Positions 24,376-64,000 of a stretch of 64,000 bases of DNA are shown here, in pieces. Below the pieces are notes generated by a model. It saw nothing but the letters and a program-made list of their open reading frames with translations, was not told the origin of the DNA and did not search any database. Numbering within the stretch: position 1 is the first letter of the stretch; the number at the start of each line of letters is the position of its first letter. The position numbers and the translations under genes are program-made. This DNA comes from Zingiber officinale (Eukaryota; Streptophyta; Magnoliopsida; Zingiberales; Zingiberaceae): contig NC_055988.1 in assembly GCF_018446385.1 (NCBI RefSeq), positions 163,320,209-163,384,208 on the forward strand, written 5' to 3'.

Positions 24376-25989
24376 CTAATTTTATTACATTTTGGTTTGC
24401 TTCCGAGTTTTATGTTGATCGATCAGTGTCATGCCACCATCAAAGTCGCTCATGAAGATGAAGTTTTCCATCTGCATCCTCCACAAATTGAATTCATATC
24501 TTTCGTACATCTCATATGGAGGTGGTTCGTGAATGTTTCGTCCTTCGACTTGAGCCATTAAGCACTGATGATAGAAAACTAAAAAGAGGTGCCAAGACTT
24601 GGTCCTAGATTAGCAGTGCTGGAGGAAAAAGTATAATATTTCACTAATTTAAAAAATAATAAAAATATTAATAAAAATATTATTTCAATTTTTTGTAAAT
24701 GGGATATTTTGCTAATACTAACTAATGGTGAAAAGATGACAATGAATTTTTGAAAAATAATTTTGGAGAGAAAAAATGAAAGGCGTAAGGATATTTTTTA
24801 AACACAAACGATATCTATTTTTCTTTTTAAAAAGAACCCCCGTTACTCGATTGGTGGTTACACCAATTCAGAGCGGTACCTGCTCTGATACTACTTGTTG
24901 GATCATAGAAGTTGCTAGAGGGGGGGGGAGTAAATAGCGATCGAAAAATTCGAAGCGAGTACACAGCGGAAAAATGAAAATCACAATGCTAACAAGAACC
25001 ACTTTTACTTAGTTCGGAGTCTTCGTCGACTCCTACTCCAAGGCTCGTATTCGTTGAATGCTTTCGTTGGGCAATCACTAATAGTTCGCAAATTGATTAC
25101 AACAGAAGGTATAGAAACTATTAAATCAAAATACTGACAACAATAAGAAAGAAAACTTGAACCGCAAGTTGTCGGAGTAGCTTCGCAGCATCGCAGGGGT
25201 AGAACGCAACAGAGCAGTTGTAGAAGGAGTTGTTGTCTTGATGCTCCGTGGAAGCCTTCTTTTATAGGCATGCTCTGGGTGCTCGGACCGTGACGTAGGT
25301 CCGGCCAATCAGCGCACTTCATATCTACGACTAGATGAGTTTTGCCTTCTAGGCACTCGGACCACCTCCGGGCGCCCAAATACCTTCCGGACGCTCGGAC
25401 CACCTCCGGGCGCTCGGACCACCTCCGGGCGGTCGGATCCCTTCCGGGCGCCCGAACCACCATTTCCAGAAAACTCCTTTTCCTACAAGAAAATGTTAGT
25501 CCAAGGTAAAAATAAAAGTTATACTACTCTGCAAAACAAAAGTTAACACAAATATAATAAAACAGGGTAATAATTAGATTCCGTCTTACCGAGATCGGAA
25601 TCTAGTCACGATCTTAACTTAGATTTCTGAAATGGATCTAAGTTGGATCGACGCCTAAGTTCCCTAACTAGGAACACGCCCTCACCAAGTCACTCCCCTC
25701 CAGTGATTTACCTTAACTTACCTACCAGACGTTCGGTCAGCCCGTCGACCCGTCTAGACTTTGTGCCAGCTACCCGGTCGACCCGTTGACCTAGCTGGAC
25801 TTCGTGTCAGCTATCTGGTTGGTTCGTCGACTTAGTTGGGTTTCGTGCCAGCTATCCGATTGGCCCGTCGACCTAGTTGAGCTTCTCCTGCATACTTGGT
25901 CAAAATGTTAGATCACAACGAAACTAACTTAACCTACTTTGTCATTCATCAAAACATGAGTTAGACCATCAGTGGTAACCGCACCAACA
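24376..25989 (-). mobile_element. Ty1/copia element M: 5' LTR, primer site and gag start, minus strand
   Basis: The LTR is 24896-25989 (1094 bp). On the minus strand it begins TGTTGGTGCGGTTACC and ends next to a GGTATCAGAGC-like primer site at 24882-24893. A gag start lies at 24558 on the minus strand (MAQVEGRNIHEPPPYEM, then a W-R-M-x-M-E core), matching the gag start of the element at 62514-64000. The element is cut at 24375 by gypsy-type LTR A and probably continues at 17146. The LTR carries a hairpin array (25725-25880), a GGGCGCTCGG palindrome array (25348-25470) and a CCTATAAAAG box at 25259-25268 (minus). Broken, moderately old. Confidence 0.8.
25725..25880 (-). repeat. 41-bp tandem hairpin array in copia LTR M
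   Basis: There are about four units of 41 bp. Outer arms on the plus strand are CCAGACG/CGTCTAG, CCAGCTA/TAGCTGG, TCAGCTA/TAGTTGG and CCAGCTA/TAGTTGA; inner arms are GGTC/GACC or close variants. Two units pair perfectly or nearly so, and the rest carry G-T wobbles or transitions. It is the older relative of the array at 62618-62822. Confidence 0.8.
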
Positions 25990-26725: not shown

Positions 26726-28101
26726 TGTTGGTGCGGGAAGCATCCGACGATCGTACCTTAGTTTTGATAATGGCAAAGGGATTGAAAATTAAGATTCCTT
26801 GTTATCTAACGTGCTTAAAGAAGGTTTCAGGAAAGTCCTAACTGCGGTTAGGCAGGTGAAAATCCTAAGGGGTGGTAACCTTAGGTCCTAGGGAGTGGTA
26901 ACCCTAGGTGAAGGAAAAATCCTAAGGGGGGGTAACCTTAGGTCCTAGGGGGTGGTAACCCTAGGTGAAGGAAAATCCTAAGGGGGGGGGGGGGGGATAA
27001 CCTTAGGTCCTAGGGGGCGGTAACCCTATGTGGAGGAAAACCCTAAGGGGCGGCAACCTTAGGTCCTAGGGGGCGGTAACCCTAGGTGGAGGAAAACCCT
27101 AAGGGGCGGCAACCTTAGGTCTTAGGGGGTGGTAACCCTAGGTGGAAAAAAACCCTAGGGGGCGGTAACCCTAGGTCCTAGGGGATGGTAACCCTAGGTG
27201 GAAAGCCCAGTCGGTCTGGAGGACCGGACTGGCATCAGGTAAATCTCCTGAGTGGAGTAGGTGAGGACGCGTTCCCCGTAGAGGGAACAGTAGGCGTCGG
27301 GTCGACCTAGGGTTTCCGGTCGGAAACCCGAAGTCAGACTCGGACAGTCCGGAGACTGTCATTATCATTTCTATTATGCTTTATGTGCTAACTTTGTGAT
27401 GCAGGGTATATTTGGGATTAATGTATCTTGCAGAGACCAAAGTGCAAAGATTAACCTCGGGTGAACAGTGTCCGAGGCGCCTCCATGGAGCTTGGAGGCA
27501 CCTCGGGTGCGAAACCTGATGCTGGCTGCGAAGAAAGCTTCAAGGCGCCTTGAACAAGTTGATGAAGGCGCCTTGGAGAGGTTGGAGGCGCCTTGAACAG
27601 GATAAAAGTTCGACCAGGTCAGTTCTGATCTACGCGGGTGACGCGGCCATCCTGGAGGTGCCTTGGAGGGGTTTAAGGCGCCTTGAACATCCTTTATAAG
27701 AGGGGTTCGAGCAGCAGCAAAGGACAACGAAAGAAAAAGCTTCCTCGTGCTGTGTTCTGCTCAAGTATTGCTTCCGAAGTGCTGCTGCAACATTCCGACG
27801 ACCCGGAGCTCAGATTTTTCTACCACTATTGTCGGTATAACTTTAATTACAGTTACATTTGTAATTAGTTTGTAATAATTATACGAGCTTATAGTTATTG
27901 CCCACGGAAAGTGATCAAGGATCGCGGGCCTTCGAGTAGGAGTCGCCTTAGGCTCCGAACGAAGTAAATCCTTCGTGTCTGTGTTTTCTCTAGTTCATTT
28001 CCGCTGCTTTAATTACTCGACGATTGTTTTACGATTTCGATAATCGAACGAAATAGCCGCGAGCACTATTCACCCCCCCTCTAGCGCGTCTCGATCCAAC
28101 A
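26726..28101 (+). mobile_element. Ty1/copia solo LTR with perfect ATTAC duplication
   Basis: It starts TGTTGGTGCGGG and ends CGCGTCTCGATCCAACA, flanked by ATTAC at 26721-26725 and 28102-28106, so it is a 1376-bp solo LTR. Parts in order: tandem hairpin array (26837-27240), GTGAGGACGCGTTCCCC block shared with the LTR at 62514, GGCGCC palindrome array (27470-27690), TTTATAAG box at 27693-27700, and the end block with a C-run and CTCTAGCGCGTC. Internal genes are absent. The intact duplication suggests a fairly recent recombination to solo form. Confidence 0.9.
26837..27240 (+). repeat. 56-bp tandem array of paired hairpins in the solo LTR
   Basis: About six units of roughly 56 bp each hold two hairpins: CCTAAGG/CCTTAGG and CCTAGGG/CCCTAGG, with loops of GGYGGYAA type. 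A further hairpin CCTAAC/GTTAGG lies at the left edge. At the right edge (about 27207-27232) a hairpin CCAGTC-GGTC..GACC-G-GACTGG has the same two-tier design as the units at 62618-62822. A poly-G run of about 15 lies in one loop. Confidence 0.85.
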
Positions 28102-54751: not shown

Positions 54752-55540
54752 TTATTTTTATCAATTGGATCAAAATTGAATAAACCTAATGAAAATCATT
54801 TAAACACATTCAAAACCACCTTCAAATTGTTGTAGCAGTCGTTAAATAATTACTATAATAATTCTATCATGCTTTCAGGTGACCATCCTGCATTTTTTTT
54901 ATAACAGCATATCTACAACCAATAGTAAACCCTAATCCTCCAGACAGACCAATGAAGGTCAAAAAACAACAAATTTCTTAAATTTACACAAAATCAGCAA
55001 GCAGGTAGGATGAAGGGGTGCAACGAACCTGATTAATCTTCGCAGCCTGCATTGCAACAAGTGTTGAGGTATCGCACGGAAGTGACAGGGTTGATATTTT
55101 GGATGAAACAATCTGTAAATGTCAATGAACACATTTGGCATCAACTTTGAACAATAATAATTGCTAGAAACACAGTAAAATTTTTGCAAATATATGAATC
55201 CAGAAAACAAACTTCTTTTAGAGAAAAGGAAGAATTGGCTGCAGATAAACCAAGTAATACATCATACAAGAATACATCCAGGGATAAATCCCCAAGCCAG
55301 GGCATGGACACTAAAACTGCCGGTCATATTACAATATCGATACATAATTTCATTTGCACTGCAAATGCAAAGCATCCTCAATGAAAACATCTAAAGATTA
55401 GAACTGTCTTCAAGCAAACTCAACAGTGGAAAGGAGATTCAAGCACTAGGGACGGTACTATCAGGCAAACCATTGTTCGAGCAAAGCCAAATACTAGATA
55501 GAACAAGCCAGAAAACTGCCCACAGATGCAGGTAATGAGC

Positions 55541-56941
<1,401 letters not shown>

Positions 56942-59415: not shown

Positions 59416-61732
59416 TCAAACCCAAAATTTATTGGTGCTCCTTGAATGCTTTAGATACTCACTAGGGATAACTTCCTTAGATATCTTCCTAAGGACCTTT
59501 CTAGGCTTCTTAGAAGCTTTGGTCACTTCTACTAAGTCACTCCTAGGGCTAACTTCCCTTATAACCATATTTGTGACTTTGTTTGGCCTTTTTGGAGGCT
59601 TAGTCACCTTTATTAGATCAACTTTAGGGATGACCTCCCTTGTGACATTCTTTGTGACTTTGTTATTCTTAGAAGTCTTGGTCACATTGGTCTTACCAAA
59701 AGAACCTTTAGAGTTTTCTTCCCTTGTATCTTTGACTTGACCTCTAAACTTAGGGTTTGTCCCATAGCTATATGGAACTCTATGAAAGAAAGTCACATCC
59801 TTCTTGACTTTAGGTTTGTATCCCAAACTTCTATAGCTATTGGATGGCTCTTGTCTAGTTCTCCCTAGAGTTTGCTCATTTTGACCCTTAAGAATATTTT
59901 CCATTCTTGCTAGGGTCCTTTCTAAGTTATCAAATCTTGACCTCAAGACTTGGTTCTCCGTCATTAAATCCATAGATTTGAATTTTTCTTGACCCCTATG
60001 AGCATTTCTATTTTTAGGCATATATCTAAAGTTCTTAGAATTATTGCCTAAGTTACTATCTAGTTTCCTAAACTTAGATGTGCTAGTTCTAGAATGAGGA
60101 GGTATATATTTATCCCTAGTTTGATCATGCTTTCTATTTTCATTGTAAATAGCATTTGAATGATTTATCTTGTAACTAGCATGCTTTTTACCATTACTAG
60201 GAGGAATTGCACTGTTAAATATTACCTTGGGTTTGCTCTTCCAAGCTCCCCCTTGATTTGTGCTTTCTCTTATCCCTTTGGTTGTCGTCTTCCCTTTAGG
60301 ACATTGACTTCTATAATGTCTTCTTTGATTGCACAAGAAACACACAATGCGTTCCTTGCTCTTCTTTGTAGTGGGAATTGTCTCTTTGAACTTCTCCTTG
60401 CCCTTGGATACTACTTAGCTCCTCTTCTTGGCTAATTTTGGACATTTACTCTTGTAGTGCTCATGCTCCCTACACTCAAAGCAAATGATATGATTTTTAT
60501 TATTTTCAATTAAAATTTCTATACCTTTGCTTGTAGGGATGATGCTCGATTCTCCATTTGATGTAGCTTGAGTTGTGGAGGTAGCATCATCTTCCAATTC
60601 TTCTTCTCTACTTGGAGGTGTGGGTGCTTCCATCTCTTCAACTCTTGAGGTTGTGGATGCTTCTACCTCTTCCTCTCTTGAAGAAGTAGAGGATCTCTCA
60701 TCTTCTTCCTTCTCCTCCTTTTCCTTCTTCTCCTCGAATGATGACCTTGTGTCAACATCGGATTGGTCCTTCTCTTCTTAGACCAATAAGCCCTTCTCCT
60801 TGGGCTCTACTACTCCTTGGACTTCTGTAGGGTCTTCATGATAGGCAATGATCTTTTTCCAAAGATCACTTGCATTTGTGGTTTCACCTACACTCAACAA
60901 AATATTAGAAGGTAGTAAATTATGCAAAATTCTCGTTATCTCCTTGTCCGCCTCCGATTACTCTCGTTGCTCTTCGGTCCAATGTCGAGGTCGGAGGCGT
61001 TTACTCTTCTTGTCCGTAGGAGCTTCAAATGGGTCACTCAAAACAACTCATTGGTTCCAATCCATTTAGAACCATGTCTCCAGTCGATTCCTCCAAAAGG
61101 TGAAGTCTTCCTTGTCGTATGGAGGAGGAATCCGGATGTCCCATCCAAGTGGACCTCCCAAGTCCATCTTCTTCCCCTAGCTTCTTGCTCTCTTGGCGGT
61201 TAGTCCGTAGAAGAGCGACCTCGCCCTGATACCAATTGTTGGGACCGATATGCCCGCTAGAGGGGGGTGAATAGCGTCTCGTCGCGCGCTTATGCTTGCT
61301 TCATCTTGATATGCAGCGAAAAATACAATACAAACACAAACACCGCTAACTCTAGGGATTTACTTGGTATCCACTTCAAAAAGAGGTGACTAGTCCAATA
61401 ATGCACACACTCACACACCTTCCACTATGAAATCACTCATTTACGGTAACTACCGAAGGCGGAGAAGCCTTACAAGCTCACAATACAACATAAATACAAA
61501 TAGAAGTAGATACAAGGGAAATTTTACAAGATTTGTACACCAAACCCTAACCCTAGCTTCTTCTTCTTATTATAACTCACCTCTTGACTTGGACGTGCCT
61601 CCAAGAACCTTCAAGAACTAGCGTTGCAAGCTTGGAGAAGATCGTTGTGAATGTTGCAGAAGAGTCGCAGGAAAGAAGGCAAAGTTCTGGCGAAGAAAAC
61701 GCTCTGCCCAGGCTTTATACAATGCTCCCAAT

Positions 61733-62125
61733 CGATTCAAATTAGTCCCAATCGATTGTCACGTCACATCTGCACAATCTCAGTCGTCCATTGCTCGTTT
61801 CCTGCTCAACCGTCACTTCCCAATTGATCAACCAATCGATTGAGACCATCTGAATTGATCGGCCGATCGATTCAAACCCATTCTGTGCTCTTGTGTCCGC
61901 GCGAGAGCTTCTCCTCCCCAATCGATCGACCGATCGATTGGTAGATCCCAATTGATCGCCCGATCAATTGGGAAAGCTTCTGTGCTTGTGAGTAATGCTC
62001 CCAATCGATCGACCGATCAATTGGACATTGGTTCAATCAATCGACCGATCAATTGGACACTGGTTCAATTGATCGACCGATCAATTGGACACTGGTTCAA
62101 TTGATCGACCGATCAATTGAACACC
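61733..62125 (-). repeat. CAATCGATCGACCGATCAATTG palindrome array in LTR H
   Basis: About ten near-palindromic units with arms such as CAATTGATCG/CGATCAATTG, separated by GACACTGGTT-like spacers in the right half. The arms vary together between ATCGATTG and ATCAATTG forms. A GTATAAAG box (minus strand) lies beside the array at about 61710. Confidence 0.8.
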
Positions 62126-62227
62126 CTGAACTTGCCTCAAACTCAAGTTCAAGGTCTCAAATCCAACTCCCGGTCAACCATGACCTGTTGGGTATCCATG
62201 CCTAGCATTTGGCCAACACCCGACGGA

Positions 62228-62480
62228 CCTCGAATTAGCCTTCTAGCCTCCTCCATCAGCCTTACGTCCCTCGGATATCTCTCATCCTTCACGCCTTGCC
62301 TTCAAGAGCTTCCTTCGGCCTCATCCTAGTTGTCGGATTATATACCACACTTGATCAACCTCGAACTAGCCTTCTAGCCTCCTCCATCAGTCTTACGTCC
62401 CTCGGATATCTCCCATCTTTCACGCCTTGCCTTCAGGAGCTTCTTTCGGCCTCATCCTAGTTATCGAGTTCTCCTTACCA
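62228..62480 (-). repeat. 131-bp tandem duplication in the U3 of LTR H
   Basis: CCTCGAAYTAGCCTTCTAGC... starts at 62228 and again at 62359. The two copies are about 95 percent alike over roughly 110 bp (CATCAGCCTTACG against CATCAGTCTTACG, CTCTCATCC against CTCCCATCT). Confidence 0.8.
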
Positions 62481-62617
62481 AGTCACACTAGGACTTATCT
62501 TGCCAAGACCACATGTTGGTGCGGTTTGCACTAACGATTTAACCCAGGTTTTGATGGATGACAAATCAGGTTAAGTTAGCTTGTTGTTGTCTAACACTCT
62601 GATCGAGTGTGCAGGAA

Positions 62618-62822
62618 AAGTCCAGCTAGGTCGACGGGCTGACCGGATAGCTGGCGAGAAGTCCAAGCGGGTCGACGGGCTGACCGGACGCTTGGCGAGA
62701 AGTCCAGCTAGGTCGACGGGCTGACCGGATAGCTGGCGAGAAGTCCAAGCGGGTCGACGGGCTGACCGGACGCTTGGCGAGAAGTCCAGACGGGTCGACG
62801 GGCAGACCGGACGTCTGGCAGG
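62618..62822 (+). repeat. 41-bp tandem hairpin array with covarying stems in LTR J
   Basis: Five units of exactly 41 bp start at 62618, 62659, 62700, 62741 and 62782, in the order A-B-A-B-C. Each is AAGT, outer arm, GGTC, 8-nt loop GACGGGCW, GACC, GGA, complementary outer arm, then a CGAG-type spacer. Outer arms are A CCAGCTA/TAGCTGG, B CCAAGCG/CGCTTGG, C CCAGACG/CGTCTGG. All are perfect 7-bp stems although the sequence differs. A further hairpin (GTCACT..AGTGAC) follows at about 62826. Confidence 0.92.
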
Positions 62823-63060
62823 TAAGTCACTGGAGGGGAGTGACTGCGAGGACGCGTTCCCGGGAAGGGAACAATAGGCGTCGATCCGGCTTAGATCCAT
62901 TTCGGATATCTAAGTCGAGATCGTGACTAGATTCCGGTCTCGGAAAGACGGAATCTAAGTCATACTTTGCTTATCTATAAAACTGTGCTAACAATCTTTG
63001 CTGCAGGGTACATTTGTCTCGGACTAACCTTTTCTTGCAGGAGGACTTTCTGGAGAAGAG

Positions 63061-63195
63061 GGGTCCGGGCGCCCGGAGGGGATCCGGGCGCCCGGGAGGC
63101 AAGTTTTATCCCGATTGTGCGTCGCCACGTGGAGCTCACTGGTTGGACCTGCCACGTCTCACCAGGGCGCCTGGAAGGGATCCGGGGCGCCCTGA
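63061..63195 (+). promoter_or_regulatory. GGGCGCCC palindrome array upstream of the LTR J TATA box
   Basis: Palindromes CCGGGCGCCCGG (twice), CCAGGGCGCCTGG and GGGGCGCCC lie within 135 bp directly upstream of ATATAAAAG. Arms change in step on both sides of the GGCGCC core. Equivalent arrays occupy the same place in the other copia LTRs of the window. Confidence 0.75.
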
Positions 63196-63911
63196 GCTTC
63201 ATATAAAAGAAGGGGCAAGGGTAGAGCTTCAACAAGAACTAAGAATCCAAGATCTGCTGCTCTGTGCTCTTGCGACGCTACGAAAAGCTCTCCGACTCAG
63301 TGCTGGTTTTGTTTCAATTTTATTGTCGGTATTTTCTTTATCTGTCAATTCTTGTACTTAACTCTGTAATATTCGAATTGATAGTGATTGCCCAACGAAA
63401 GTGGTCAAGGACCACGGGCCTTCGAGTAGGAGTCGTCACAGGCTCCGAACGAAGTAAAAAACAACTGTGTTCGTTTACCTTTCCGCTGTGTTTAAACTCT
63501 TGTTTTTTCGAATCGATATTCACCCCCCCCCTCTATCGAATCTAACGGTCCTACAAGTGGTATCAGAGCGAGTACCGCTCTGATTTGGTGCAACCACCAA
63601 TCAGACAAAGAGGGGGTCTTTTTAAAGAAAAATTATATATCGTTCGTTTTTAAAATAAAACCTTACGCCTTTCGTTTTTTCCCTCCAAAACTGGTTTTGA
63701 AAAATACATCGTCATCTTTTCACTATTATTTAGTATCGACAAAATATTACATTTTCAAAAATTTGAGATAATATTTTTTATTAATATTTTAATAATATTT
63801 TATTATTATTTTTTTAAAAAAAAAAATTTTGAAATATTATTTGTTTTCCAGCACTACTAATCCAAGACCAAGTCTTGGGATTTTGTCTTTGTTTCATTGT
63901 GTGGAAGAACA

Positions 63912-64000
63912 ATGTCTTTTCAAGAAGGATGGAACCCCAATGAACCACCACCGTACGATGAAGATTTCAACTACTGGAGGCGAAGAATGGAATGCTTCTT
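63912..64000 (+). CDS. gag N terminus of element J (partial, runs off the window)
   Basis: The frame from ATG at 63912 reads MSFQEGWNPNEPPPYDEDF, then N-Y-W-R-R-R-M-E-C-F. The PPPYD..F.YW...ME pattern is the conserved start of copia (SIRE-type) Gag, which coats the element's RNA in virus-like particles. It is open to the window edge, so completeness cannot be judged. Confidence 0.8.
   Translation, partial: MSFQEGWNPNEPPPYDEDFNYWRRRMECF

Follow-up and report, generated by a model that had tools for sequence, protein, structure and literature searches.

Results

Host element and Sirevirus hallmarks

The window, i.e. the whole stretch of 64,000 nucleotides of Zingiber officinale DNA that was analysed, contains the 5' LTR of a Sirevirus-type copia element (TGTTGG...CCTACA, 1,042 bp, plus strand, 62514..63555), recognised by its sequence, its PBS and a matching 3' LTR. 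The 3' LTR lies beyond the window at C3:163389267, and since a CCACA flank is common to both LTRs and they differ by 9 substitutions in 1,040 aligned positions, we regard the insertion as young. An array of five hairpin units (62618..62822, plus strand) starts 104 bp into the LTR and lies upstream of a TATA-like box (63202..63208, plus strand), in agreement with its earlier placement in the U3 region of a copia LTR.

Most of the non-coding hallmarks of Sireviruses, as given in the sections of PMC2829016 that we consulted, are present in this element. The LTR/PBS junction CA/AGTGG/TATCAGAGC (63554..63569, plus strand, CAAGTGGTATCAGAGC) fits the published definition CA/A(T or G)TGG/TATCAGAGC. 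The PPT of the same definition, AGGGGGAG followed by AT/TG, is found as AGGGGGAGATTG just ahead of and into the 3' LTR (locus L012), and a poly-C run of nine C about 24 bases from the LTR end (63523..63531, plus strand) matches the Sirevirus integrase signal of PMC2829016. There is also a candidate inverted repeat at the PPT/3' LTR junction, its left arm bordering the PPT and its right arm starting from LTR position 36, but with 14/22 ungapped matches it is weaker than the published repeats (mean 28 bp, 89% identity; PMC2829016, same sections). Judged from these sequence features, the element is of the Sirevirus type. Its length of about 7.6 kb, taken from the two LTR positions, is below the 8.45-14.42 kb reported for 21 Sireviruses in PMC2829016, a range that is descriptive rather than defining, so this may be a shortened element. 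A Pfam scan of the 163-codon stretch at the start of gag gave no match.

The array and its five units

The five 41-bp units follow each other head-to-tail, and a parse that fixes the 19-base core and leaves the arms free shows the outer arms of all five to be Watson-Crick paired. The outer stem is CCAGCTA/TAGCTGG in units 1 (62622..62654) and 3 (62704..62736), CCAAGCG/CGCTTGG in units 2 (62663..62695) and 4 (62745..62777) and CCAGACG/CGTCTGG in unit 5 (62786..62818), all on the plus strand and all found by sequence, parsed arms and fold. The inner stem GGTC/GACC is constant across the units and the loop differs by a single base, in unit 5; in all these points the first-pass annotation was right. 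In the fold of each unit, a 7-bp outer stem is followed by the inner stem and the loop, and three unpaired bases (GGA) bulge out on the 3' side where the inner stem meets the outer one.

Folding energy by itself is a weak witness for these hairpins. Taken singly, the units reach z values of -1.3 to -1.9 (plus strand) and -2.1 to -2.7 (minus strand). For the 206-nt array, with no pair spanning more than 50 nt, z is -2.3 and -4.8, respectively, and the global fold of the array (261 nt) is unexceptional (z -0.56).

Other structured regions in the window

Four further hairpins are predicted by local folding 3' of the array (62826..62957, plus strand), with the stems GTCACT/AGTGAC, GACGC+GTTCCC/GGGAAC+GCGTC, CTTAGAT/ATCTAAG and TAGATTCCG/CGGAATCTA; their z is -5.6 on the plus and -5.9 on the minus strand, and the second of them, used as a pattern, occurs 15,919 times genome-wide. 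An older related array of four units lies on the minus strand (25725..25880), in an LTR starting at 25989. The U3 of a related type B LTR (26726..27360, plus strand) has the same flanks as the array LTR and different hairpins (array z -3.7 plus, -6.0 minus). It includes a second hairpin array (26862-27199) with a paired stem difference, CCTAAGG/CCTTAGG vs CCTAGGG/CCCTAGG, and similar loops. Tandem palindromes of another kind, AATCGATC..GATCGATT, are seen at 610-933 and 62002-62124. An Rfam search of 60000-64000 returned eight matches, all under the gathering score and all at 61903-62133, i.e. outside the array; the sub-threshold microRNA matches coincide with the palindromes at 62002-62124.

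Splice-like signals bracket the array (62605-62827), with CTAAC...TGTGCAG|G on the 5' side and CAG|GTAAGT on the 3' side, followed by CTAAC...CTGCAG|G near 63006 (62990-63045). In raw counts over 20 sampled loci, 15 have a GGTA(A/T) site ahead of the next hairpin and 13 have a CTAAC-type...AG further on, one of the latter clearly elsewhere. Some transcript might use the array as an exon. The minus strand also carries an ORF that reads like actin and an ORF whose start resembles a CCHC zinc knuckle as in retroelement gag (55494-56315, 59416-60345).

Arm covariation across the family

The genome searched comprises 3.09 Gb in 211 contigs, and in all counts each LTR of an element is entered separately, as is each of the two haplotypes; reversed-pattern controls gave 0 for each of the five genome-wide counts given here. 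There are 35,300 occurrences of the core with free arms. Among the fully paired stems, CCAGCTA/TAGCTGG (12,220) and CCAAGCG/CGCTTGG (9,283) are the most frequent, as compared to 352 mixtures (CCAGCTA with CG(C/T)(C/T)TGG 215, CCA(A/G)(A/G)CG with TAGCTGG 137), a count that includes only mixtures involving CCAGCTA/TAGCTGG. Paired stems far outnumber the mixtures counted, and the arm covariation first noticed in five units is real and reaches beyond the window. Pairing is well beyond what chance would give: 85 of the first 100 free-arm units listed have complete Watson-Crick pairing, whereas re-pairing their arms 2000 times gave 26.9 such units on average and never more than 43. All 100 come from the opening 11.4 Mb of a single contig, and copies that share a source element are among them.

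Loci were collected by searches with the array, with the old copy and with the downstream flank only, as well as from a pattern sample. The DNA searches scored 40 candidates of 2877, 7640, 4617, 6146 and 6025, and the pattern searches gave the first 100 places. Of 116 loci, 13 were set aside because they contained one unit or none, which left 103 loci with 548 units, including a few two-unit rows that are perhaps spurious. In 380 of the 548 units each arm is an exact match to one of four types, and in 371 of these the two arms are of the same type; the other 9 combine two types, 5 of them only one base apart. Fully Watson-Crick pairing is found in 379/548 units, yet in only 9/114 distinct arm pairs, where the unpaired remainder is mostly scattered decay. 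When whole 3' arms were shuffled among 112 distinct arm pairs, the share of paired cells (wobble included) decreased from 84.1% to 74.3%, with a maximum of 76.9% in 300 shuffles.

A 13-unit alignment serves as an illustration rather than a test, since its units were hand-picked for paired stems. In this alignment 6 of the 7 outer pairs changed on both sides, one pair occurs with all four Watson-Crick types, and sliding the partner by one base lowers the paired cells from 98.6% to about 39%; RNAalifold returned the identical structure.

Stem types and intermediates

Copy numbers mostly reflect inheritance and not independent events, therefore it is the number of stem types that counts. The type A array stems are CCAGCTA, CCAAGCG, CCAGACG and CCAGACA, each with its complement, to which the rare stems CCAACTA (3 loci), CCAGCCG (1 locus) and CCAAACG (1 locus) are added, again with complements. 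Type D loci, of which 7 were seen, retain the inner stem and the bulge and have the outer stems CCAGATA/TATCTGG and CCGGTTG/CAACCGG, while the 12 type B loci have different hairpins between identical flanks. About seven distinct base-pair replacements separate the source stems in the hand-picked alignment.

The first-pass annotation had stated that four stem positions change together. The paired change on both arms is confirmed, but the four-position jump is partly a sampling effect due to missing intermediates. CCAGACA/TGTCTGG, CCAACTA/TAGTTGG and, in a related subfamily, CCAGATA/TATCTGG are each one base pair from other types, and CCAAGCG is linked solely via CCAAACG/CGTTTGG, which is fully paired in 1 of 103 loci. 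There are five one-pair steps among the stem types, one of which, CTAGCTA/TAGCTAG (2 loci), is probably decay. The mismatched CCAGACT/TGTCTGG is recurrent (5/103 loci).

The number and the order of units vary among loci. The 73 loci outside the old set show 32 type strings, some of which differ solely in unclassified units, and 8 of their 387 units are mixed; the CCAGACG type is the last unit in 63 of these loci. The 30 old loci show 27 type strings and 10 mixed units, many of them the last unit. At two loci (L080, L084) the LTR arrays are broken up by stretches from another subfamily, as if elements had recombined.

Decay, wobble and strand

The first-pass annotation had named independent change of the arms as the result that would speak against a structural role. 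Among the source stem types the arms do not change independently, but within copies they do: one-sided transitions in 237 CCAGCTA-type units comprise 40 wobbles and 37 A-C mismatches, as expected of neutral decay. Since decay favours neither kind, pairing appears to be kept in source lineages and not in dead copies. A wobble test aimed at RNA selection specific to one strand gave, when pooled, 100 G-U against 74 A-C. The stem finder gave G-U/A-C ratios of 74/8 for young type A, 53/32 for old type A, 17/15 for type B and 9/14 for type D; the G-U cells of the young loci are not independent, because 43 are one inherited position in a downstream hairpin and 10 belong to another stem. This inherited wobble position is a weak hint that points to RNA.

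For structure sampling, we selected 20 loci among the 100 places listed, favouring those with unusual loops, and 14 were usable, i.e. the LTR start lay at least 200 bases ahead of the pattern hairpin (the second downstream hairpin). In these 14 LTRs the array stretch has z values of -0.6 to -3.2 on the plus and -1.0 to -6.4 on the minus strand, and for the stretch that begins with the second downstream hairpin they are -2.0 to -5.5 and -2.8 to -7.1, respectively, while eight R/U5 controls gave -0.4 to -1.8 and -0.1 to -1.4. As both strands are structured alike, a role in RNA is not singled out.

Discussion

It is useful to compare the ginger array to the palindromes already known from Sirevirus LTRs. 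The first-pass annotation knew of no description of such an array. This did not hold, since Sirevirus LTRs have already been reported to carry palindromic repeated motifs (RM) upstream of the TATA box. PMC2829016, in the sections consulted, describes thirteen Sireviruses with RM such as CGGTCAGACCG, so we consider the array a variant of a described feature. Both are tandem palindromes in the first LTR half, upstream of the TATA box, and the inner GGTC/GACC is similar to RM cores of the CGGTCAGACCG kind. The ginger units differ in their length of 41 bp, their inner and outer stem, their bulge and the several stem types per array. The RM in those sections have a CGG-CCG core and at least eight copies, starting 200-400 bp into the LTR, whereas ginger has five array units from about 104 bp, plus four other hairpins; CGG and CCG are present in units 1-4 (CGGGCTGACCG), off the centre of symmetry. 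In maize, palindrome-rich regions of Sirevirus LTRs are described as highly variable small-RNA hotspots (PMC5311732 and PMC10760457, on Bousios et al. 2016; cited from excerpts). The ginger array is likewise a variable, hairpin-forming set of palindromes in the LTR regulatory region, but in another host and analysed here as DNA sequence. In the open-licence literature searched, none of the papers listed reports stems that covary inside a Sirevirus array.

The in-step change of stems during the evolution of the family suggests that pairing itself has been kept. We favour the explanation that the hairpins are maintained for their structure in active elements, and give it a probability of roughly 0.6. 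The main rival, which we consider rather unlikely, is mutational copying, in which one arm is rewritten from the other by template switching, during replication or during reverse transcription, so that matched stems arise without selection on structure. Such events are described, in the excerpt of PMC8794818 used here, as able to create and maintain hairpin stems with multi-base compensatory changes such as those in ginger, although in RNA genes and not in a retroelement LTR, and the founding stems of the ginger array have perfect Watson-Crick pairing. Against this reading, the asymmetric bulge and the loop in ginger stay unsymmetrical next to the changed arms, and several stem types are only one pair apart.

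Two other explanations appear improbable, to a similar degree. The palindromes could act as double-stranded promoter elements, i.e. as binding sites of host transcription factors; this has been proposed for the Sirevirus repeated motifs (PMC2829016, same sections) and is compatible with the position upstream of the TATA-like box and with the likeness of both strands. Binding to particular arm sequences is unlikely, however, because the arms vary from unit to unit within a single array, and it would not preserve the match between arms; only the core is constant. Alternatively, a few palindromic units might have arisen once by chance and then been copied, the covariation being a founder effect. 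Copy numbers do trace to few sources, and decay within copies is unselected (the 40 wobbles vs 37 A-C mismatches above), but the related subfamilies stay paired with other stems, and inheritance only does not sit well with about seven distinct replacements, albeit counted in a hand-picked alignment.

The palindromic array of this Sirevirus-type element is a train of U3 hairpins upstream of the TATA box. In every module the inner stem-loop and its 3-nt bulge stay constant, whereas the outer stem around them varies in sequence between units and subfamilies with both arms still matching. If structure is indeed selected, the hairpins would be needed by active elements, most likely as single-stranded (RNA or cDNA) structures in which the core is recognised and the outer stem acts as a clamp. 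Base pairs might be replaced a few at a time, whole units would be gained and lost by recombination with mixed units seldom spreading, and decay of inserted copies would be unselected. More tentatively, and at less than even odds, we speculate that the constant bulged stem-loop is read by an element protein, a host RNA-binding protein or Dicer, that the clamps of this modular, structure-selected train are sequence-free, and that neighbouring stems were perhaps diversified so that hairpins fold separately and not with each other.

The palindromes of Sirevirus LTRs have so far been read as promoter elements or as small-RNA triggers. Covariation of stems, both inside single arrays and from one subfamily to another, tells selection on pairing apart from selection on sequence, and a family with 35,300 core matches in a single genome is a natural library for testing one against the other.
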